Positions 3,751 to 55,371 of a stretch of 58,164 nt of DNA are shown here, piece by piece (position 1 is the stretch's first letter; each line of letters opens with the position of its first letter). The notes under the pieces are model-generated. The model ran no database searches. It was not told the DNA's origin and was given only the letters and a program-made list of their open reading frames with translations. Source of the stretch: Myxococcota bacterium (GTDB lineage Bacteria > Myxococcota_C > UBA6777); NCBI GenBank assembly GCA_023150835.1, contig JAKLKB010000028.1, forward strand, positions 1 through 58,164, read 5' to 3'. A program made the position numbers and the translations under genes.

Positions 3751-3892
3751 GCAGTAGCCAAAAAAGCCGTGTTCGCGAACGCTCAAGCGAGAGCGTCGCT
3801 GGTTTGAAAAACAGTGATCTCATCGCCCACACGGGGTCAAGGGGGCAAAGCTAAGGGTGTGGGGCGTGGGGTGAAGCCCCACCACCCCCTAC
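3751..3892 (-). repeat. Interspersed repeat family A, copy 1
   Basis: In minus orientation: GTGGGGCTTCACCCCAC hairpin, CCTTGACCCCGTGT, then TTTTTCAAACCAGCGACG and GCGAACACGGCTTTTTTGGC. The other copies are at 8866, 19787, 24447, 32231, 49757 and 56531. It occupies the promoter-proximal side of the secreted-protein gene ending at 3723. Confidence 0.8.
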
Positions 3893-11900: not shown

Positions 11901-12519
11901 CGCAGGGCCGGGAGGAGTGCGCGCAGACGCCGAGCATCTGTTGGGAGCGTGGAGTGGGAAAACAGGTCGGATGTTGGCGGGTTTTCCGCGTGTGGTCGAA
12001 GACTTTCAATTTTTTATGAACCCCGTGGTTGCAGAGATATCAGGGGACGACAAATACGACGTGATCTCGGGGACGGGAGGCTATCTCTTGCACGCGGTGG
12101 GATCGGATGGAAAGCCCGTTGCAGGCTATCCCAAACAAACAGGCGGCTGGCTGGCGGCTTCACCGACAAGCGGCGATATGGACGGAGACGGAAAGCGCGA
12201 GCTTGCGGCGCTCACACGCAACGGCTGGTTGTTTGTGTGGCGCACCAAAGGCGATGCAGGGATCAAAGCGCAATGGGAATCCTTTCACCACGATCTCGCC
12301 AACACAGGCAACTTTAGCGTGCCCTTGCCGGGTCGTCGCATTGGAGATGCCCCCGAAAAAGTAGACGAACCCAACCCTTCAGATGGCGGAAACACCGACA
12401 AGACCGGTCCCGCCACAGGATGCGGATGTCAAAGCAGCGGTGAAAGCGGATTCTCGGTCGGTTTGCTGTTGATCTTGTTGTGCTGGTTGGCACGCCGCCG
12501 AGTTGTGGGGGTTGGATGA
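8986..12519 (+). CDS. Secreted subtilase-like protein with FG-GAP repeats and MYXO-CTERM-like tail
   Basis: 1177 residues. Signal peptide (MKRKYRWGRVGLGLLGVWAL). An S8 peptidase-like domain spans about residues 110-440. The Asp motif (VLIAVTDSGV, about residue 140) and His motif (FGHGNGE, about 246) are present. The oxyanion Asn region reads GSSADE instead of AAGNE, and the Ser motif reads SCSSEATGISSGHAG instead of GTSMAxPHVAG, so activity is doubtful. The Asp-rich inserts DANGDGVVNMLD and DKNGNGIKDPGD resemble EF-hand calcium loops. From about residue 600 at least seven FG-GAP/VCBS modules follow (DLDGDGKLEVVVAS, DLDGDGKLEIIVGA, DMDGDGKRELAAL), likely a beta-propeller. The end, GCGCQSS then a hydrophobic stretch then RRR, resembles the MYXO-CTERM surface-sorting signal. 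Its stop overlaps the next start (ATGA). Confidence 0.88.
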   Translation: MKRKYRWGRVGLGLLGVWALGLLLTAADWPNGPDEDPTLAIPNDPDYARRCRCKAGATCPDEDPDTKENKDKPCFHDRQCGGKSFVCQGRGYWNYWSFVPEEWTKTPGFREEEKQLGTGIHADRAWQLTTGDARVLIAVTDSGVYWDNKDLVNKYYLNTGELPKPQDKDGKEYPTHDANGDGVVNMLDYADDPRVTDKNGNGIKDPGDLIKTFSNGKDDDNNGYIDDISGWDFMQDDNDPNDDTRFGHGNGEASDSAAEGNNGISGVGVCPKCMVMMLRVSDSFVGDTNHFAAASIYAADMGAQVIQDALGVMNNTPYSREAVAYAWRKGTLVIGSSADETSYHHNYPGIYLHTLYVSAIRYDAEKVEQSKTFLNFTNCSNFGGKLVISTPGVSCSSEATGISSGHAGLLYAAGLKFKVTPPLNAAETYQLFIMSADDINVAESKTDKTKYPSGPGWDHYFGYGRNNARRSVEWVRDGAIPPTALITSPRWFQPIYPAKTPSIAIEAEIEARRHERFDYILEVAKGVQPEEGAYRKLKEEKSVTQAIKGKVADWSVKDEDYEKTGATTRDAHKHSYTIRIRVTAYRKDGKTDKGEFRKTVHLLDDPDLVAAFPMYLDAGGAPSLKMADLNNDGKQELIVASESGTIHAFDINGKDIEGWPVQTKLLAFFDPNNPNNHLKAPAYDKEGFRKDYRQSIIATPAIGDLDGDGKLEVVVASYDGEVYVFGHDGKPKAGFPVKLDAEKSKKTDKNNRLEYGIFASPVLFDLDGDGKLEIIVGAMDGHIYVWRHDGSMQPGFPVELSDKSEATPQRGRIMSTPAVGDVDGDGKPEIFVGTNEVYKDEKEARLYGIHHDGNNHAGGPYLAGWPVKIFTLAGDVLPYVGRGNPNSPMLADFDGDGKLEIVNGTMFFSPTIYKADGTQFRQMLPAPFGAGTDSTDTQMIFGLNNPSLGDLDGDGIPDLIGGGVGGNALKAIAGPGGVRADAEHLLGAWSGKTGRMLAGFPRVVEDFQFFMNPVVAEISGDDKYDVISGTGGYLLHAVGSDGKPVAGYPKQTGGWLAASPTSGDMDGDGKRELAALTRNGWLFVWRTKGDAGIKAQWESFHHDLANTGNFSVPLPGRRIGDAPEKVDEPNPSDGGNTDKTGPATGCGCQSSGESGFSVGLLLILLCWLARRRVVGVG

Positions 12520-15380
12520 TCGAACAACTGTCGGCTCCTTTTGTGGTGTTTGCGCTAGAGGAACGAGCGTTGGTGGCGCATCAGGCGATCCAAACCTTCT
12601 CGGCTTACGGTCGTGCGCGAGCGGTAGGAGAAGCCTTTTCTTTGCGTGCCTACTGGTGCGAACAAAAGCGATGGCTATCGCCTTCGTTGTACGATGCTTT
12701 GTGGGAGCGCTTCTCAACGGAAACCTCGGCAGAACAGCAGGAAGAAGTCTTGGACGCGGAGACCCAACGCAGCCGCGATCTCGACTGCTTGGCGACCGTA
12801 CAGCTTTACATACTCCAACACCCGACAGACTCACAAGAAACACCACAACGCATCCAAATCGAGCGCGGAAAAAAGCAAGAAAAGCAACAGAAAGCGATGC
12901 TTCAGATCGCAAAAGAAGCCGACCACCGCGCAAAGGAGAGCGACAGCAGCGCAAAGGAGGAAGTCCCCAAAACACAGGTGCTTTCGGTGTCCGTCACCGA
13001 AGCAAGCGAGGATATCCCCGCCCAAGCGCATCTTGTCGAAGCGCCGCAAGTGCTTTGGCAACCCGCCCGCGTCTACGCCGAACGCTACAAAGAAGAAGAA
13101 GAGTTGGGACGCGGTGGTCTTGGGCGGGTGGTGGCGCTGTACGACCGCAATGTCGGTCGAAAAGTAGCAAGCAAGATGCTGTTGAAAGGCACAGGCGCAT
13201 CGTTTCGAGAGCATCAGCGCTTTTTTGAAGAGGCCCGACTGACGGGGCAATTAGAACATCCCAACATTATCCCGATCTACGATATCGGCGTGTTGGAAGA
13301 TGGGCAGCCCTATTACACCATGCGCCTGAGTTCATCGCGAAATCTTGCGCAAGTGTTAGAGGAACGCAGCGCCTCGATCTTGCAACTGCTCAAGATCCTT
13401 CAACAGATGTGCATGGGCCTTGAGTACGCGCACAGTCGAAATGTGATCCACCGCGATATCAAGCCCGCCAATATCTTGCTTGGTGAGTTTGGCGAGGTCT
13501 TGATCTTGGATTGGGGGATCGCGGAACGCACAGCCCCCGAAGACCAAGCCGACGGATTCAGCACACAAACCCCCAAAGACAAGATCCCTCGCGGAACTCC
13601 CGCTTACATCGCCCCCGAAGTCCTCACCAAGGGCATCATCTCACCTGCTTTGGACCAATACGCCTTGGGGGTGATCTTGTACGAGATATTGACGGGGAAA
13701 CGGCCTTTTGAAGAAGTCAACCTGTTTACGTTGATCTTCAAAGTCAGCTTTGAAGAACCCTATCCACCGAGCCATTGCGATGTGTCTTGGGAAGTCCCCG
13801 AAGAGCTAGAACAGATCTGCTTGCGGATGTTGGCCAAAGATCCCCAAGCGCGTTTCCCGTCTTGCCGCGCTGTCTATGATCAGTTGGAAGAATATCTGGA
13901 AGGCACAAAAGAAAAACAACGGCGAAAAGAAGCCGCCCTTTCTCGGATCGCAGAAGCCGACGCGATCAAAGTAGAGTTCTACGAAAAACGCGCACAGTTG
14001 GGCGCATTGCGAAAAGAATGGGAAGATGCCCAAAAGACCGTCGAACCGTGGGACAGCCCCGAAGCCAAGCGCGAAGCATGGGCCAAAGAAGACAAGTTCC
14101 TCGAATTCGAGCAAGAAGTGGTGCGGCTTTTTGGGGCAGCGGTCCAAAAGTACATCCGCGCACTAGAACACGAACCCGGGAACGCAGACGCCAAAAACGG
14201 CCTTGTCGAGTTGTATTGGGAGCGCTTCTTGGAGGCCGAACGCGAAGGCGACACCTTGCAACAGATCTATTACCGCGATCTGGTGGAGTTTTATGACGAC
14301 GGAACCTACGCAAGATTGCTGCACGGCCAAGGCATCGTTGAGATCGCCACAGACCCCAAAGACGCCACCCTACAGGTCTTTCGCTTTGTGGAGCAAGAGC
14401 GCAGACTCCGACCGCTTTTAGAGATCGAAGAAAAAAAAACACCCAGCACACTCGAACTTTCGCAAGGCTCGTACCTCTTGCGCTTCCATAAGCAGGGGCG
14501 GCGAGACACGCTTTACCCGCTACAGATCCAACGAACCACCCGCGATGCTGTGCATATCCGCTTGTACCGCGAAGAAGAGATCGGTGGGGCATACATACAC
14601 GTCCCTGCGGGGCCATTTCCGTTTGGTGGCGATCCAGAAGCCTTGATGGGGCTGCCTTTTTCGCACCACACACTCGATGACTTTTTTATCTCGCGCTATC
14701 CTGTCACGTTGGGGGAATACCTGATCTATGTAAACACCATCCATGCCGAAGATCCCGCCCGTGCAGCAGATCTGGTTCCGCGATCTGGACAAGAAAACTA
14801 CGCGATATTGGAGGGGGATCACTACATCCCCCATCGTGCGGCCCTATTAGAAGGTGAGATCGCCCAACGCTATCCCGTAGGCGAAGGGCATGAAGAGCGT
14901 CTACCTGTGTTTGGAGTGAGTTGGTTTGAAGCGGTCTTGTACTGTCGCTGGCGCACCCAACGCGAAGGGCGCTTGGTGTCCTTGCCCTCCGAAGAACAAT
15001 GGGAAAAAGCCGCAGGGTGCTTTGATCAGCGGATCTATCCTTGGGGCAATCGTTTTGATGCAACCTTTTGTAAGATGGGGCGCTCTCGCCCTGCCAACCA
15101 GCTACAGCCCGAGCCGATCGGCGTCTTTACGGCGGATCAGTCCGTGTATGGGATGTGTGATGTGGTGGGATGTGTTAGCGAATGGACGCTCTCGATGACG
15201 CCCGAAGAAGTGGCGTTGTTCACCGAAGATCCAAAGATCACCCCCGTTCAACGAGGCGGTGGATGGGTCGCTTCTAACGAGCGAAGTTTGCGCCTTCGCA
15301 CACGACTGCCCCGCGCCGAAGGCACACGGACGTACAATTGCGGCTTTCGCGTTGTTGCTTATCCCAAACAGCCAAGCTAG
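12516..15380 (+). CDS. Ser/Thr protein kinase fused to formylglycine-generating-enzyme-like domain
   Basis: 954 residues. The start ATG overlaps the TGA of the upstream secreted protein by 4 bp, implying translational coupling. A helical N-terminal region of about 180 residues comes first. The kinase domain (about 190-460) has ELGRGGLGRVV as glycine loop, VASKML (ATP Lys), HRDIKPANILL (catalytic loop), LDWGIAE (DWG in place of DFG) and GTPAYIAPE (activation segment end). A charged coiled-coil-like region (about 470-640) follows. The C-terminal FGE-sulfatase/SUMF1-like domain (about 692-954) shows FGVSWFEAVLYCRW, LPSEEQWEKAA and RGGGWVASNERSLRLRTR. Such fusions are known in Myxococcota and Planctomycetota. 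The FGE fold there often has no proven oxidase activity. No transmembrane segment is evident. Confidence 0.9.
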   Translation: MIEQLSAPFVVFALEERALVAHQAIQTFSAYGRARAVGEAFSLRAYWCEQKRWLSPSLYDALWERFSTETSAEQQEEVLDAETQRSRDLDCLATVQLYILQHPTDSQETPQRIQIERGKKQEKQQKAMLQIAKEADHRAKESDSSAKEEVPKTQVLSVSVTEASEDIPAQAHLVEAPQVLWQPARVYAERYKEEEELGRGGLGRVVALYDRNVGRKVASKMLLKGTGASFREHQRFFEEARLTGQLEHPNIIPIYDIGVLEDGQPYYTMRLSSSRNLAQVLEERSASILQLLKILQQMCMGLEYAHSRNVIHRDIKPANILLGEFGEVLILDWGIAERTAPEDQADGFSTQTPKDKIPRGTPAYIAPEVLTKGIISPALDQYALGVILYEILTGKRPFEEVNLFTLIFKVSFEEPYPPSHCDVSWEVPEELEQICLRMLAKDPQARFPSCRAVYDQLEEYLEGTKEKQRRKEAALSRIAEADAIKVEFYEKRAQLGALRKEWEDAQKTVEPWDSPEAKREAWAKEDKFLEFEQEVVRLFGAAVQKYIRALEHEPGNADAKNGLVELYWERFLEAEREGDTLQQIYYRDLVEFYDDGTYARLLHGQGIVEIATDPKDATLQVFRFVEQERRLRPLLEIEEKKTPSTLELSQGSYLLRFHKQGRRDTLYPLQIQRTTRDAVHIRLYREEEIGGAYIHVPAGPFPFGGDPEALMGLPFSHHTLDDFFISRYPVTLGEYLIYVNTIHAEDPARAADLVPRSGQENYAILEGDHYIPHRAALLEGEIAQRYPVGEGHEERLPVFGVSWFEAVLYCRWRTQREGRLVSLPSEEQWEKAAGCFDQRIYPWGNRFDATFCKMGRSRPANQLQPEPIGVFTADQSVYGMCDVVGCVSEWTLSMTPEEVALFTEDPKITPVQRGGGWVASNERSLRLRTRLPRAEGTRTYNCGFRVVAYPKQPS

Positions 15381-17872: not shown

Positions 17873-18739
17873 TCAAAACGAAGAAGCAGAGGCCGCATCC
17901 CCTGCAAGATAAAAGCACGTGATGGTGTAACGTGCGATCCCCTCGGGGATAGCGCGCACAGGCTCCACCCAATGAGGTGCGCCCTGAGGACGAAAGATCA
18001 AAGCGCTGTTGAAGACAGGCGGGATCGCCAAAGCGATCCGTTGCTTGTCAGGATGCAAGAAATACAGGTTCCCCCCCCATTCAGGCGACCAATGCGCCGA
18101 AAGATTGTACACCACAGCGATGCCTTCGCATTCGGTGTCTTCGTGCATCGCGAAAAAATCCCCCTCCCGCAAACGTGATATCTGGACTTGAATGGCCGAG
18201 TGCATTGGACGAGGATGAGGCCATCCCACCAGCCATTGATGCGCTGCTGCCGCCTCTTTGGTGCGCAACCAATTCACCAGCCCCGCCAAGATGCCCGACG
18301 GCGCAAGCGCGTCCATCGGAAGGATATCGATCTGGTAATCCGAAAAATGATGCCGAACAAAAGACGCTGTAGACAGTTCTTTCCAGATCGCCCACGCCTG
18401 TTCGGCAGGGAAAGCCTCTTGCAAAGCAACGTGCGGGATCGGCCCTTCAAAAAGAAAATGTTGGCGGATCGTCGTCACGATCGCGGGATCGAGAATCTGA
18501 GGATGCCACCACTGCGACACATTCGAGGGGTCGGGCGAAGAGTCATGTACGATCGTTCGCCAGTTCGAGCCAAAGCGGTGATCTACAAGATGAGGAATAA
18601 AAAAGGCCCCTCGTTCGGACGCTTTGGGAAGGCTCTCCCACGCAGGCCAAGCGTGCTCCAAAAACAAAGAACGGCTGTGCTGTTGGTATCGCTCGATCGG
18701 GGGTTGGCATCCTTCGTTCGGGGATTCTGGTCGACTCAC
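17873..18739 (-). CDS. 2OG-Fe(II) oxygenase in the graspetide-like cluster
   Basis: 288 residues from the GTG at 18739, chosen because GGAGG lies 6-7 nt upstream; the longer frame overlaps the ATP-grasp gene. The C-terminal third is a 2-oxoglutarate/Fe(II) dioxygenase fold of the prolyl-4-hydroxylase type. The HxD pair is in FFAMHEDTE (H199, D201), the distal His in GAPHWVEP (H256) and the oxoglutarate Arg in GIARYTITCFYL (R270). The N-terminal 130 residues are unassigned and may bind substrate. The gene starts 29 bp after the ATP-grasp stop, so the two are surely co-transcribed. Inferred role: hydroxylation or another oxidation of the repeat precursor encoded upstream, possibly at Pro, Asp or Lys. 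Confidence 0.82.
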   Translation of the reverse strand: MSRPESPNEGCQPPIERYQQHSRSLFLEHAWPAWESLPKASERGAFFIPHLVDHRFGSNWRTIVHDSSPDPSNVSQWWHPQILDPAIVTTIRQHFLFEGPIPHVALQEAFPAEQAWAIWKELSTASFVRHHFSDYQIDILPMDALAPSGILAGLVNWLRTKEAAAAHQWLVGWPHPRPMHSAIQVQISRLREGDFFAMHEDTECEGIAVVYNLSAHWSPEWGGNLYFLHPDKQRIALAIPPVFNSALIFRPQGAPHWVEPVRAIPEGIARYTITCFYLAGDAASASSF

Positions 18740-18768
18740 GCTGGCCCTCCATTCGCTTGTTGATTTGC

Positions 18769-19710
18769 TCAGATAGCCGCTTGTTCGACCAAGAACGCCG
18801 CCAAACGCTTGATCAAGACCCCTTCCACGGGATCGTCGAAGTACGATATCGCAGGCGTTGGATTGCACTCAAACACCACAAAACGCCCATCTGCTTGGCG
18901 TCGCATATCGACCGCCGTCCAAGACAGCCCAAGCACCGACGCAGCGCGCACACACAACGCCCATGCTTCTTCTGAGATCACCGTAGGTCGGGCTTGATCG
19001 ACCGCCTCACGTGCATCCACCAACCCCTCCGTTGGCAACGAAAAGGCCGCCACAGGCTCGCCGTTCAACACATACGCTCGGAACTCTTCGCCTAGAATCT
19101 CCTCCTGAAACAGCACAGGGCAATGCGCCAATAACCCCAACCGTTCGGGCTGGAGATCGGCGCTCGACAAACGTCGCACCATCGCACCTCCCCCAAGCGG
19201 CTTGTAGATCACACGTGGATGTCGCTCAACAAACGCCAATAACGCCGAATGATCGGACGTTGCAAGGCTTTCAGGAACAGGGATGCCCTGCGCTTTCAAG
19301 CGCGCAAGCTGATGCAGCTTGAGTTCATGCAAACGCACCGAAGCCATCGGATTGATCATCCGCGTCCCTTGCTCTTCCAAGATCTCCAACACCGACGCAA
19401 TCAACGATTGACGTTCCCGCTCTGCGATGTACATCTCCTGCCAGATATCAAAGTTGCGCCGCGAAAATTGCTCGGGGTCGGTCGAAGGCACACCCGTGTG
19501 GATCGTCCGCAGATACACACAACGCAACGCATCCAAACGCTCCCCCTCATAAAGCAACGCTCCTCGATCGTACGTCAACGTTCGCGCTTCTGGAACAGCC
19601 GCCGTTTCCAACAGCCAAGGCAAACCACCCGCCCGCTCCACCGCCTTCATCACATACATCGCTTGCTCGTCTTGTCGGGATGCAACAATTCCGACACACT
19701 TCTTCTCCAC
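18769..19710 (-). CDS. ATP-grasp ligase, RimK/MvdD (graspetide macrocyclase) type
   Basis: 313 residues; GTG start at 19710 with GAGGAA upstream. The pattern is that of the ATP-grasp enzymes that modify ribosomal peptides. A substrate-side N-terminal domain has CVYLRTIHTGVP and INPMASVRLHELKLHQLARL followed by GIPVPESLATSD. The ATP-binding core has VIYKPLGGGAMVRRL and PVLFQEEILGEEFRAYVLNG. The metal site is in VVFECNPTPAISYF (E281, N283). Such enzymes activate Asp/Glu side chains as acyl-phosphates and join them to Ser/Thr hydroxyls or Lys amines. Upstream on the same strand lies a precursor with seven Lys/Asp-containing repeats, downstream a 2OG oxygenase. A RimK-like glutamate ligase role is the alternative. 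Confidence 0.85.
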   Translation of the reverse strand: MEKKCVGIVASRQDEQAMYVMKAVERAGGLPWLLETAAVPEARTLTYDRGALLYEGERLDALRCVYLRTIHTGVPSTDPEQFSRRNFDIWQEMYIAERERQSLIASVLEILEEQGTRMINPMASVRLHELKLHQLARLKAQGIPVPESLATSDHSALLAFVERHPRVIYKPLGGGAMVRRLSSADLQPERLGLLAHCPVLFQEEILGEEFRAYVLNGEPVAAFSLPTEGLVDAREAVDQARPTVISEEAWALCVRAASVLGLSWTAVDMRRQADGRFVVFECNPTPAISYFDDPVEGVLIKRLAAFLVEQAAI

Positions 19711-19786
19711 GATCTGGGTTCCTCACAGTGCTTGTTTTGTTGATAGGACCTACGCATTTGGATGGTTTGGTGTTTATTGATTCAGT

Positions 19787-19910
19787 TTTGTGGGGCGAGG
19801 TACCACACCCCGCAAGGGTGCACAGCCCCTTTGACCCCGTTTTGGCGAAGAGATCACAGATTTTTCAACACAACGGCTCTGTCGCTTGAGAGAGCGCGAT
19901 CACGGAGTTG
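19787..19910 (+). repeat. Interspersed repeat family A inside the peptide cluster
   Basis: GTGGGGCGAGGTACCACACC, CCCTTTGACCCCGTTTTGGCG, TTTTTCAACACAACGGCTC and GAGCGCGATCACGGAG follow the family order. It sits between the precursor and ATP-grasp genes, where its hairpin could attenuate transcription so that precursor mRNA exceeds enzyme mRNA (inference). Confidence 0.75.
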
Positions 19911-19957
19911 GAGACAGTGTAGCTTGCAAGACAGCGGAACAACCAGAAAGAAGGGGC

Positions 19958-20782
19958 TTAGCGGAAGAGATCGCGGAGTAGGTTCGCAAGATCGGAGAGT
20001 TGGCTTCCAAGCGAGCCGGGAAGAGGCTCATCCGCACGAAACTTCATAATCGGTCCGCCATTTTGGGGAAACCCGATGTCGGGAAGGCTGGGGAATCCGC
20101 CGCCTTGGTTCGGCATCGGCTCATCCGCACGAAACTTCATGATCGGTCCGTTGCCACCGGGAAACGGGAACGTCGGGACTTGGGGCAAGCCCTCTTGACC
20201 GGGCATCGGCTCATCCGCACGAAACTTCATGATCGGTCCGTTGCCACCGGGAAATGGGAACGTCGGAGGTTTCGGTGAAGAGCCATCTTGACCGGGCAAC
20301 GGAACGTCTGCACGAAACTTCATGATCGGCCCGTTGCCACCGGGAAATGGAAACGTCGGAGTTTGAGTTGGAGGTGTGGGTTGTCCGCCGTCTTGGCCGG
20401 GTAGTGGGACATCTGCGCGCACTTTCATGATCGGCCCGTTTCCGCCCGGCAGTTGAGGATGTCCGCCGTCTTGGCCGGGCAGTGGGATATCTGCGCGCAC
20501 TTTCATGATCGGCCCATTGCCGCTCGGCAAATGGGGTTGCCCTCCCTCTTGGCCGGGTAATGGGACATCCGCACGAATCTTCATGATCGGCGGTTTGCCT
20601 TGCTGTTGGGATTGAACGAAGTTTTTGACCGCGTCAGCAGCCCCTTGAAAGCCTTTTGCAGCGCGTTCAAAAGCATCCGCAACTCGGCCCCCTCCGTCTT
20701 TCACACCTTGGTTTTGTTGCGTAGAAGAGGTTTTTTCGGTGGATTGGACGGGAGGTAGGTTCGGCTTTTGATTGATCTTCAT
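19958..20782 (-). CDS. Multi-core peptide precursor, putative graspetide-like RiPP
   Basis: 274 residues from the ATG at 20782, with AAGGAG 7 nt upstream; the longer frame has no site. Residues 1-62 are leader-like: a Gln/Ser/Thr-rich start, then an amphipathic helix (RVADAFERAAKGFQGAADAV). Then come seven copies of P-I-M-K-[FVI]-R-A-D-[VIE]-P-[LM]-P, with Lys at 68, 94, 120, 155, 186, 216 and 247, separated by 26-35-residue Gly/Pro/Gln-rich spacers (GQDGG, PTFPFPGGNG). K-[FVI]-R-A-D resembles the K-Y-P-S-D of microviridin cores, but the cores lack Ser/Thr, so only Lys-Asp/Glu amides, not esters, would be possible within a core. No signal peptide. The next genes on the strand encode an ATP-grasp ligase and a 2OG oxygenase, the basis for the RiPP reading. 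A Pro-rich structural protein is the alternative. Confidence 0.72.
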   Translation of the reverse strand: MKINQKPNLPPVQSTEKTSSTQQNQGVKDGGGRVADAFERAAKGFQGAADAVKNFVQSQQQGKPPIMKIRADVPLPGQEGGQPHLPSGNGPIMKVRADIPLPGQDGGHPQLPGGNGPIMKVRADVPLPGQDGGQPTPPTQTPTFPFPGGNGPIMKFRADVPLPGQDGSSPKPPTFPFPGGNGPIMKFRADEPMPGQEGLPQVPTFPFPGGNGPIMKFRADEPMPNQGGGFPSLPDIGFPQNGGPIMKFRADEPLPGSLGSQLSDLANLLRDLFR

Positions 20783-20793
20783 CTTGTGCTCCT

Positions 20794-20838
20794 TAGCGAT
20801 AACGCTATGCATCGTATGGAGATATCTCCATGCGATGC
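20794..20838 (-). promoter_or_regulatory. Two adjacent palindromes upstream of the peptide precursor
   Basis: 20809-20838 is a 30-bp palindrome, GCATCGTATGGAGAT/ATCTCCATGCGATGC, with one mismatched pair, centred on GATATC. 20794-20807 is TAGCG-ATAA-CGCTA, touching the AAGGAG at 20789-20794. Both lie between the hydratase/dehydrogenase stop and the precursor start. They could be an operator, a terminator of the upstream operon, or 5'-UTR hairpins controlling translation. Confidence 0.6.
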
Positions 20839-30220: not shown

Positions 30221-32239
30221 ATGCCTTCGTTTTCACAACGCTTTGAACCTTTTGCCAAGCGGCTACGCGACGATCAAGCCCATCCTCTCTTGATCAAAAA
30301 CTTTCAAGCAGCCTACGCTCAACTTTGCGAAGGCGAAACCGGCCTACTCCCCGAGTCCCAGATCCAACCTCCTCCCCCACAACCCGACGCCGAAGAACTC
30401 CCCCGTTCCACCCAAAAACGCGGAGAGAAGGCACTCCCCCACACCATCCAGATCCGCCTCAACGGTGGGCTTGGCACCAGCATGGGACTCCAACAAGCCA
30501 AATCTCTTCTCTTCGTCAAACAAGATCTATGCTTTCTCGATATCATCGCCCAACAATCCGAAGCCTTGCACATCCCCCTGCTTCTGATGAACAGCTTCGC
30601 CACGCAACAAGATTCCCTCCAACGGCTTCAACAACATCCAAAACTCCGTCAGATCCGACCTCATCTTCCTCTCGACTTCTTGCAACATCGTATCCCCAAG
30701 ATCCGCCAAGACAACCTCTCCCCTGTGCAGCACACCGAAGAAGAACTCACGTGGTGTCCTCCCGGCCACGGAGATATCTATCTCGCCTTGATCACCAGCG
30801 GGCTTCTTGAGGCCCTGCTCCAAGCCGATATCCACTACGCTTTTGTCGCAAACGCCGACAATCTCGGCGCAAGCGTCGATCTCTCCATCCTTGGTTACTT
30901 TGCCGAACACGACTTCCCTTTCTTGATGGAAGTCGCCGACCGTACCCGCGTAGATCGCAAAGGCGGACACCTTGCACGCCATCTCGATGGCCACTTGCTG
31001 CTTCGTGAATCTGCCCAATGCCCGCCCCAAGACGAACAATCCTTCCAAGATATCCAACGCTACCGCTACTTTAACACCAACAACATCTGGCTTAATCTCC
31101 GCCATCTTCAAAAAACCCTCGAAGACAACAGCGGTATCCTCGGCCTACCTCTGATCCGAAACGCCAAAACCGTCGATCCCCGCGACCCCGCCTCAACGCC
31201 CGTTTTTCAACTAGAAACTGCGATGGGTACGGCGATATCCATCTTCTCCAACGCTCAAGCCCTGCGTGTCCCCCGCAGCCGCTTTGCTCCCGTCAAAACC
31301 ACACAAGATCTACTCGCTGTGCGCTCCGATGCCTATACGCTCGATCCCTTCGGAAGGATCGCCCTTCACCCCAAGCGAGAAGGCATCCCGCCCGTCGTGT
31401 CTCTCGACAACCGATACTACCGACTTGTCGATGATCTCGACCAACGCTTTCCCCAAGGCCCGCCTTCTCTGCTTCACTGCACACTTCTCTCCGTCCAAGG
31501 CGATATCACCTTCGGGCGCTCTGTCACTTGTCGAGGCAAGGTCGAACTATCCGCCCCCAACCAACCACAAACTCTTCCCGATGATGCCCAACTCTCGGGT
31601 TCCTTCGACCTTCCCTCTTCGCGATCGATCCCCACTCAACCGCACGCCTCTCCCCATCGCTACCAAGCCTATTACTGCGAAGAAAATATCTGGCAACTCG
31701 CCCATGAATCGGCCTTTTCTGATGTCGAAGGCTACGCTGTCTTCATCTCGAATCCCGAAAAATCCTGTGCGCTTTGGCACCAACGCGCCAGTCACTCCGC
31801 ATGGGAACCCGTCTTGTGGGATTACCATGTCCTCTATCTCGCCGCGACAGGCCCGCAATCCTCGCCTTGGGAGATCTGGGATCTCGATACCTTGCTCGGA
31901 ATGCCCGTTCCTTTGGCCGATTATCTCTCACAAACTTTTTGCATGACCGCCGAACTTCACCCACGTTATGCCCCATCCTTCCGACTTCTTCCACGCGAGA
32001 TCTTTTTACGCGACTTTTACAGCGACCGCAGCCACATGCTCGACAAACACCAGACTTGGCGTCAACCTCCGCCGCCTTGGCCGCCGATCATGCCCAACGT
32101 CCCACAACCCCGCCCTCTCCTCCGCATCGTCGCCATGCAAGATCCCACCCTCGGACCCATCCTCGATCTCGGCCAACTCTACGAGCGCTTTCTCCCAACT
32201 CTACGAGCGCTTTCTCTCCCTATAGAAGCCCCGCAGTAG
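30221..32239 (+). CDS. UDPGP-type uridylyltransferase fused to NTAQ1 N-terminal glutamine amidase
   Basis: 672 residues in one frame, start ATG at 30221 (GAAGGG upstream). The N-terminal part (about 1-440) is a UDP-glucose/UDP-N-acetylhexosamine pyrophosphorylase of the eukaryotic UDPGP type: RLNGGLGTSMGLQQAKSL (nucleotide loop), FVANADNLGASVD, and YRYFNTNNIWLNL. The C-terminal part (about 475-670) is unmistakably NTAQ1: YYCEENIWQLA (Cys486), YAVFISN, VLWDYHVLYL (His536), IWDLDTLLG (Asp554), and DRSHMLDKHQTWRQPPPPWP. The Cys-His-Asp triad has the spacing of the human enzyme. NTAQ1 deamidates N-terminal Gln to Glu. The combination is unusual. A 22-bp tandem duplication at the 3' end has shifted the frame, so the last ten residues are non-native and the stop lies in a family A repeat. 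Confidence 0.9.
   Translation: MPSFSQRFEPFAKRLRDDQAHPLLIKNFQAAYAQLCEGETGLLPESQIQPPPPQPDAEELPRSTQKRGEKALPHTIQIRLNGGLGTSMGLQQAKSLLFVKQDLCFLDIIAQQSEALHIPLLLMNSFATQQDSLQRLQQHPKLRQIRPHLPLDFLQHRIPKIRQDNLSPVQHTEEELTWCPPGHGDIYLALITSGLLEALLQADIHYAFVANADNLGASVDLSILGYFAEHDFPFLMEVADRTRVDRKGGHLARHLDGHLLLRESAQCPPQDEQSFQDIQRYRYFNTNNIWLNLRHLQKTLEDNSGILGLPLIRNAKTVDPRDPASTPVFQLETAMGTAISIFSNAQALRVPRSRFAPVKTTQDLLAVRSDAYTLDPFGRIALHPKREGIPPVVSLDNRYYRLVDDLDQRFPQGPPSLLHCTLLSVQGDITFGRSVTCRGKVELSAPNQPQTLPDDAQLSGSFDLPSSRSIPTQPHASPHRYQAYYCEENIWQLAHESAFSDVEGYAVFISNPEKSCALWHQRASHSAWEPVLWDYHVLYLAATGPQSSPWEIWDLDTLLGMPVPLADYLSQTFCMTAELHPRYAPSFRLLPREIFLRDFYSDRSHMLDKHQTWRQPPPPWPPIMPNVPQPRPLLRIVAMQDPTLGPILDLGQLYERFLPTLRALSLPIEAPQ
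32173..32216 (+). repeat. 22-bp tandem duplication shifting the 3' end of the UDPGP-NTAQ1 gene
   Basis: CCAACTCTACGAGCGCTTTC plus TC occurs twice in direct succession (32173-32194 and 32195-32216). Removing one copy restores the frame ...LYERFLSL followed by TAG (now at 32223-32225). With both copies, translation continues to 32239. Confidence 0.85.
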
Positions 32240-36068: not shown

Positions 36069-36386
36069 TTCCGTGTCTTCCGTGTCTTCCGTGTCTTCCG
36101 TGTCTTCCGTGTCTTCCGTGTCTGCCTTGTCTGCCTTGTCTGCCTTGTCTGCCTTGTCTGCCTTGTCTGCCTTGTCTGCCTTGTCTGCCTTGTCTGCCTT
36201 GTCTGCCTTGTCTGCCTTGTCTGCCTTGTCTGCCTTGTCTGCCTTGTCTGCCTTGTCTGCCGTGTCTTCCGTGTCTTCCTTGTCTGCCTTGTCTTCCTTC
36301 CGTGCCTTGTCTTCCTTGTCTGCCGTGTCTGCCGTGTCTGCCTTGTCTGCCTTGTCTTCCTTCCGTGCCTTCCGTGTTTTCCGTGG
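36069..36386. repeat. 9-bp minisatellite (TGTCTTCCG / TGTCTGCCT)
   Basis: About 35 units. The first block is TGTCTTCCG, the middle block about 15 near-perfect TGTCTGCCT, the end a mixture including CTTCCTTCCGTGCC, finishing with TTCCGTGTTTTCCGTGGACAG. TGACTTT repeats precede it. All frames stay open (SALSALSAL, PCLPCLPCL), which creates artificial ORFs and an artificial N-terminus for the next gene. A short related piece occurs at 49981-50015. Confidence 0.9.
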
Positions 36387-54045: not shown

Positions 54046-55371
54046 ATGGCACAAAACAGAGTCCTCGTCTTGGACGTTGACCATCAACCCCTGATGCCTT
54101 GTCATCCTGCTCGCGCTCGTCAGCTGCTCTCGGAGGGCAAAGCCGCCGTTTGGCGGCGTTTTCCCTTCGCCATCGTACTCCAACAACCCACCACTTCTCA
54201 CACACAACCCCTGCGCTTGAAGGTCGATCCCGGGAGTCGCACCTCTGGGCTCGCGGTCGTCGCCACTTACCAACGCGGACAGGTCTGTGTGTTCGCCGCA
54301 GAACTCCAACATCGCGGCATGGCGATCAAAGAAGCTCTCTACAAACGTCGTGGTGTTCGGCGTTCGCGGCGGTATCGCCACACACGTTATCGCAAACCGC
54401 GCTTTCTGAATCGAAAACGAAGAAAAGGCTGGCTGGCCCCCAGTTTGGAAAGTCGTGTGCAAAACGTGGTGCAGTGGGCCAAACGGCTGAGGCGTTGGAT
54501 GCCTTTGACGGACTTGTCGATGGAATCGGTGCGTTTCGATCTGCAACGCTTAGAGAATCCAGAGATCGAGGGCGTCCAATACCAACAAGGCACGTTGTTT
54601 GGGTACGAAGTGCGGGAATATCTGCTGGAAAAGTGGGGAAGAAAGTGTTTCTATTGTGAGGCCACAGAGGTGCCTTTACAAATCGACCACATCATGCCTC
54701 GCTCGAAGGGGGGGACGGATCGTGTGAGCAACCTGACGTTGGCCTGTGCAGCGTGCAACCAGAAGAAGGGCAACACGGACGCGAAGACGTTTCTAGCCAA
54801 ACAGCCCTCAAAATACGCAGCGTTGAGGGCTGCATCCAAGAGAGGGCTCTCAGATGCGGCGGCGGTCAACAGCACACGAACGGCGTTGTGGAAACGGTTA
54901 TGTGGGTTGGGTATCGCGTTGGAAGTGGGCAGCGGCGGGCAGACGAAGTACAACCGAAGCGTGCAAGGGTATGCGAAAACACACTGGCTCGATGCCGTGT
55001 GTGTCGGCGTGTCGGGAGAACGTGTGCTCGTGGAGGCAGAGCAAGAAGTGCTGGAGATCAAGGCGATGGGACGGGGAAGTCGACAGATGTGCAGAATGGA
55101 TCAGTACGGGTTCCCCCGAACAGGCCCGAAAGCAAGACAAAAGAAGGTGTACGGTTTTCAGACCGGAGACATGGTGGAGGCGGTGGTTTCGAGAGGAAAA
55201 AAAGCAGGTCGATACGTAGGACGGGTGGCGGTGCGAAGTACGGGCAGTTTCAACATCAAAACCCGAAGTGGCACAACACAAGGCATTTCTTACAAACATT
55301 GTCGTATCCTTCAACACACAGACGGATACGCCTACACACGAAGAAAGGACGGCGCTTCCTCCCCCCTCTAA
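54046..55371 (+). CDS. iscB: IscB RNA-guided HNH/RuvC endonuclease
   Basis: 441 residues. PLMP-type N-terminus (VLDVDHQPLMPCHPARARQL). RuvC-I LKVDPGSRTSGLAVV (D61). Arg-rich bridge helix RRGVRRSRRYRHTRYRKPRF. RuvC-II in TDLSMESVRFD (E160). HNH domain with a zinc ribbon CFYC...CAAC and LQIDHIMPRSKGGTD (H215). RuvC-III KTHWLDAVCVG (H313, D316). C-terminal target-interaction region GDMVEAVVSRGKKAGRYVGR and GSFNIKTRSGTTQGISYKHC. All catalytic residues are present, so it is probably active. IscB is the transposon-encoded relative of Cas9 and uses the omega-RNA encoded upstream. No TnpA is nearby, so the element is non-autonomous or immobilised. Confidence 0.96.
   Translation: MAQNRVLVLDVDHQPLMPCHPARARQLLSEGKAAVWRRFPFAIVLQQPTTSHTQPLRLKVDPGSRTSGLAVVATYQRGQVCVFAAELQHRGMAIKEALYKRRGVRRSRRYRHTRYRKPRFLNRKRRKGWLAPSLESRVQNVVQWAKRLRRWMPLTDLSMESVRFDLQRLENPEIEGVQYQQGTLFGYEVREYLLEKWGRKCFYCEATEVPLQIDHIMPRSKGGTDRVSNLTLACAACNQKKGNTDAKTFLAKQPSKYAALRAASKRGLSDAAAVNSTRTALWKRLCGLGIALEVGSGGQTKYNRSVQGYAKTHWLDAVCVGVSGERVLVEAEQEVLEIKAMGRGSRQMCRMDQYGFPRTGPKARQKKVYGFQTGDMVEAVVSRGKKAGRYVGRVAVRSTGSFNIKTRSGTTQGISYKHCRILQHTDGYAYTRRKDGASSPL

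Follow-up and report, generated by a model that had tools for sequence, protein, structure and literature searches.

A three-gene cluster on the minus strand of a Myxococcota contig, encoding a precursor, an ATP-grasp ligase and a 2OG-Fe(II) oxygenase, very probably specifies a corallotide-type graspetide, in which seven Lys-Asp lactams would be formed within one large precursor and the bridged lysines would then be hydroxylated at C5 by the CorC-like oxygenase. The window, that is, the whole stretch of DNA analyzed here, is 58,164 nt long, and the positions of the features within it are given in Table 1.

Corallotide, the product of corABCD in Corallococcus exercitus and a member of graspetide group 15, was reconstituted by Carter et al. 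(March 2026; PMC13097080), who established its 5-hydroxy-isopeptide by MS and NMR. In that system CorB links Lys to Asp in KxxxD motifs, while CorC, besides binding and activating CorB, acts after cyclisation to hydroxylate the bridged Lys at C5; CorD, although present in every group 15 cluster, is non-essential (PMC13097080). The 5-hydroxy-isopeptide ring is described from one genus and has no known function, and group 15 is stated to be Corallococcus only in a paper whose supplementary lists may already name other hosts (PMC13097080).

The locus and its seven cores

Table 1. Features of the cluster, in window coordinates
Feature	Position	Strand	Remarks
Inverted repeat	20809..20838	.	13 pairs, core TGGAGATATCTCCA; ahead of precursor start
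Precursor (CorA-like)	19958..20782	-	274 aa; ATG 20782, stop 19958; 64-aa leader, seven cores, short tail
Leader region	20591..20782	-	residues 1-64, with VADAFERAAKGFQGAADAVKNFV stretch
Core 1	20555..20590	-	PIMKIRADVPLP; first residue 65
Core 2	20477..20512	-	PIMKVRADIPLP; first residue 91
Core 3	20399..20434	-	PIMKVRADVPLP; first residue 117
Core 4	20294..20329	-	PIMKFRADVPLP; first residue 152
Core 5	20201..20236	-	PIMKFRADEPMP; first residue 183
Core 6	20111..20146	-	PIMKFRADEPMP; first residue 213
Core 7	20018..20053	-	PIMKFRADEPLP; first residue 244
ATP-grasp graspetide synthetase (CorB-like)	18769..19710	-	313 aa; INP..GIPVP and ECNPTP present
2OG-Fe(II) oxygenase (CorC-like)	17873..18739	-	288 aa from GTG 18739; PF13640

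The precursor gene begins 126 nt after the stop of a FadB-like gene and has an AAGGAG-like ribosome site ahead of its ATG. Its product ends in a short, helical-looking C-terminal tail (GSLGSQLSDLANLLRDLFR), and residues 1-135 share 95% identity with the sister species KLAP109. The seven cores conform to PIMK[FVI]RAD[VIE]P[LM]P and are spaced 26-35 residues apart in an array built of 93-nt and 78-nt units; both cores and linkers are rich in proline, and Ser and Thr are absent from every core, as the earlier note had claimed. A degenerate DNA motif, ATGAARDTNMGNGCNGAY, matches seven times in the window with one mismatch allowed (0.18 expected), and all seven matches that it has in the 7.56 Mb genome fall on the cores. 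When the P-I-M-K-x-R-A-D codons were compared among the cores (x left out), pS was 0.48 and pN was 0, and because the differences are synonymous only, constraint on the motif acts at the level of the protein. The sister genome has at least four cores with a spacing unlike that in the window, so the motif persists through changes in copy number.

No protease or transporter adjoins the three-gene cluster. The inverted repeat ahead of the precursor is a possible operator or mRNA hairpin, and its exact 14-mer is present as a single copy in the window genome and in that of the sister, each time ahead of the precursor. No sigma-70 promoter site for the operon exceeded chance, the 247 nt separating precursor from ligase gave no signal of RNA structure (z = -0.15), and the window contains neither Rfam matches nor a tRNA. 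A dispersed short repeat, GGGGTCAAGGGG, lies at window positions 3833, 19827, 24488, 33506, 49797 and 56571, with one copy in the precursor/ligase gap; GGGGTCAAAGGG, with at most one mismatch, has 6 copies in the window compared with 0.45 expected.

The ligase and the oxygenase

Judged from its sequence, the ligase groups with the graspetide synthetases and not with the RimK-type glutamate ligases. TIGR04187 is its best NCBIfam model, yet the score is far under the cut-off (74.5 vs 350 bits). A profile of the window ligase and its near relatives matches the plesiocin ligase PsnB (7drm) with E=1.7e-71, the microviridin ligases (5ig8/5ig9) with E of 1e-16 to 1e-17, and RimK with E near 2e-11. 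In a scan of bacterial genome contigs, identity to CorB from eight Corallococcus species was 51-54%, and it was 51% in the deep-sea bin Dive96, 42-43% in an Archangium MAG, 39% in the Myxococcales MAG nzgw260, and at most 39% for ligases outside the CorB clade. The alignment of the ligase with CorB scores about 330 bits, which the usual EFI formula converts to about 94 (PsnB, about 39), and an SSN alignment score of 70 was used to group graspetide synthetases (PMC13097080), by which measure the window ligase would cluster with CorB. Trees place it inside the CorB clade, together with the Corallococcus, Dive96, Archangium and nzgw260 sequences, while PsnB and the window genome's own RimK fall outside (SH-aLRT 100 for the 13-row clade; 95/97 for a smaller clade that includes CorB); a grouping with RimK was looked for in the placement and not found. 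The window ligase nests among Myxococcota sequences, which makes its transfer between lineages likely. The likeness to the KYPSD core of microviridin on which the earlier note had drawn is not needed, the closest ligases being CorB and not the microviridin enzymes.

The oxygenase lies in an open frame extending from 18868 to 17873, and GTG 18739, just 3' of a GGAGG, is its likely start. It matches PF13640 (E=3.4e-12), retains all of the HxD, distal H and R ligands, and is 37-39% identical to CorC proteins over about 245 aa. Its AlphaFold model (pLDDT 71, with the N-terminal 70 residues unreliable) matches Fe/2OG hydroxylase structures, the nearest solved folds being the prolyl hydroxylases Tpa1/OGFOD1 and PHD2. 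The three genes lie where they had been placed in the earlier note, on the minus strand with H/D/H/R intact, and the reading offered there, graspetide logic with Lys-Asp lactams only and later hydroxylation, is well supported by the homology to CorB and CorC.

Comparison with known graspetides

Plesiocin (PsnA/PsnB, Plesiocystis pacifica; 7drm) resembles the window system in its multi-core precursor and homologous ATP-grasp macrocyclase (33%), but has no 2OG partner, and its ligase falls in a separate clade; plesiocin cores, TTxxxxEE, carry Thr/Glu esters. The microviridins (MdnB/MdnC, KYPSD core) share the graspetide logic and one lactam involving Lys, whereas their ligases are far more distant and the window cores cannot form Ser/Thr esters. 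Group 18 graspetides (SmaO/SmaX) likewise combine a graspetide cluster with oxygenases, but there a linear Asp is hydroxylated to give aminomalonate independently of ring formation (PMC13097080), unlike the route expected for the window.

With corallotide, the window shares a large multi-core precursor, K-hydrophobic-x-[A/S/M]-D-x-P cores, a TIGR04187-type ligase, a PF13640 oxygenase and the A-B-C gene order with homologous B and C. It differs in its seven PIMK[FVI]RAD cores, in a leader that cannot be aligned, in the lack of CorD, and in its host, which does not belong to Corallococcus and which the genome set used assigns to another phylum. CorD adjoins CorB/CorC in all eight named Corallococcus loci, while no CorD homologue was found on the window contig and the PF00144 (beta-lactamase) genes of the genome are all on other contigs; as CorD is reported to be non-essential, it is an accompaniment rather than a defining part of the corallotide type. 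A homology to the CorA leader suggested by eye (DAFER...FV) had no statistical support, the alignment being no better than shuffles; the leaders of related precursors vary, and one precursor is almost leaderless.

What marks a corallotide-type cluster, several KxxxD motifs in a large precursor and an adjacent CorC-homologous oxygenase with intact ligands, is found at this locus, as is what marks the graspetide class, namely a ligase of the synthetase clade adjoining a precursor whose cores keep their acceptor and donor side chains. The chemistry expected for the window product is the published one, and the product class is already described. The earlier note knew of no described class with such cores and a 2OG oxygenase, but corallotide matches the window in core type, in ligase and in 2OG oxygenase (PMC13097080).

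Distribution and variants

The window assembly consists of 239 contigs, and its phylum is represented by five genomes in the set used. The cluster is conserved in both species of the genus, and none was found in the family's remaining three members. In the sister genome, which was submitted under the title 'Myxococcota bacterium isolate KLAP109', separate contigs carry the precursor and the ligase, and their adjacency is deduced from contig ends only. A clade ligase, defined by a profile score of 257 bits or more, is carried by 22 of 195 Myxococcota genomes (one of the 22 is split by a frameshift), and a CorC homologue is adjacent in 22/22. Two other oxygenase matches lie apart from these: in G475 the match is a pair of broken fragments, and in G512 it is weak. 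No CorC homologue was present beside lower-scoring ligases in the seven neighbourhoods inspected.

The association of core and ligase that the earlier note proposed to check holds, in that KxxxD cores accompany this ligase clade, and a repeat protein lacking an ATP-grasp neighbour was looked for and not found. In precursors beside the clade, Lys is at -4 in 126 of the 134 D-x-P sites and is nearly always followed by V/I/F; as these precursors were chosen by their place beside the clade, and most also by having at least two KxxxDxP motifs, the count describes the family and is no independent test, while the cores of the window were not selected in this way. The PIMKIRAD core itself also occurs in the Archangium MAG and in G456.

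Several variants depart from the arrangement in the window. In nzgw260 (L078:7881-9641) CorB and CorC form a natural in-frame fusion with ligands intact, which fits the CorB-CorC complex known for corallotide, and in the precursor a globular-looking region of roughly 300 residues comes after two KIRADDP cores. The CorC homologue of Dive96 (L047:6974-7837, equivalent to L040:883-1746 on the minus strand) has E/H/L/F in place of H/D/H/R, although structure comparison of its model finds the same hydroxylase folds; with the ligands lost and the predicted fold kept, it looks like a non-catalytic partner. The Dive96 precursor, with a KIQAD core beside a CorB-like ligase, is cut by a contig end. A first motif scan near the distant ligases L040-L043 found no multi-KxxAD precursor, that of L040 being cut by the contig end. 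The Archangium precursor (L054:7643-7936) is almost leaderless, with five KIRADD cores of which the first (IKKIRAD) starts at residue 11, and the G456 precursor resembles this early-core form. In G569 (L142:6763-7059, minus strand) one VIKVRADDP core lies among plesiocin-type TTxxxxEEDGG repeats. The genes beside this hybrid precursor, two for ATP-grasp ligases and one for a homologue of CorC, suggest that the ligases divide the labour. Finally, a G570 protein (L151:5292-6713, minus strand) with a single VIFKIRADDP core and a large C-terminal domain lies beside a ligase that is one of the seven lower-scoring ones yet groups with nzgw260 in the tree, and has no CorC homologue nearby; the oxygenase is thus not invariable in the wider clade.

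Other features of the window

Four further features were seen elsewhere in the window. Positions 54046-55368 (+) encode a 441-aa RRXRR and HNH protein, IscB-like by domain content, with no guide RNA among Rfam gathering-score matches. An N-terminal glutamine amidase domain is fused to a UDP-glucose pyrophosphorylase domain at 30221-32236 (+; Pfam UDPGP and Nt_Gln_amidase), an odd pairing, and a Ser/Thr protein kinase is fused to a formylglycine-generating-enzyme-type domain at 12480-15380 (+; 966 aa). At 36074-36362, 32 copies of a nine-base tandem repeat give SSVSSVSALSAL at the start of the frame of a HEAT-repeat protein.

Proposed chemistry and alternatives

In the proposed pathway the CorB-like ligase would activate the Asp side chain of every K-[FVI]-R-A-D core and link it with the amine of the lysine at position -4, generating seven i/i+4 isopeptide (lactam) rings. 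The CorC-like oxygenase probably forms a complex with the ligase and aids its action, and would then hydroxylate C5 of each bridged Lys. The product would be a large repeat protein, rich in Pro and Gly, that bears seven 5-hydroxy-isopeptide rings and has a mass change of -2 Da per core, or -14 Da in total. We infer both reactions, their order and the enzyme complex from the characterised homologue, while the window itself contributes the genes, their order, the homology, the K and D conserved in the cores and an oxygenase with its ligands intact. We also infer the site and regiochemistry of hydroxylation, since the window core has Arg at K+2 and the characterised KIVAD has Val.

It is quite unlikely that, after the same graspetide ligation, the oxygenase acts on a proline or Asp of the Pro-rich repeats and not on the bridged Lys. 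Its best structural matches are prolyl hydroxylases, the Pro richness of cores and linkers fits a proline target, and Asp beta-hydroxylation occurs in group 18 graspetides (PMC13097080). However, prolyl hydroxylases are what the PDB best samples among relatives of this fold, CorC itself is also a PF13640 protein, and CorC, the nearest characterised homologue, makes 5-hydroxy-Lys on the bridged ring and only after cyclisation.

Two readings that dispense with rings are much harder to credit. A RimK-like ligase adding amino acids to the repeat protein would be consistent with the weak matches of the ligase to RimK-type models, but its grouping with CorB, far from the RimK of the same genome, the profile E-values (1e-71 for PsnB vs 2e-11 for RimK) and the paired K and D kept in the family cores make it highly improbable. 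That the precursor is an unmodified Pro/Gly-rich repeat protein unrelated to its neighbour genes seems scarcely plausible: the leader has no recognised homologue and the cluster lacks a flanking protease or transporter, but this core and this ligase recur side by side in Dive96 and in many Myxococcota, and the motif codons of the cores vary synonymously only.

With the corallotide-type pathway as the preferred reading, a much broader and more speculative proposal, which we regard as rather unlikely, is that K-[VIF]-x-[AMS]-D motifs and the ligase-oxygenase pair represent a general bacterial means by which large proteins, repetitive or multi-domain, are stapled through hydroxylated Lys-Asp isopeptides, nearer to collagen-type maturation than to a secreted small peptide. 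The oxygenase would then be primarily a ligase-activating subunit, such that its chemistry can be lost, as in the Dive96 homologue, or the two genes fused, as in nzgw260.

Significance

The window departs from two published statements about group 15, that it is Corallococcus only and that CorD is in every cluster. That a distant lineage has these three genes, with a core held by selection, shows that the gene set is no oddity of Corallococcus, and the window enzymes are diverged variants for biocatalysis. Together, the fusion, the ligand-less oxygenase, the oxygenase-free ligase, the almost leaderless precursor and the plesiocin-type hybrid make the activation of CorB by CorC directly testable.
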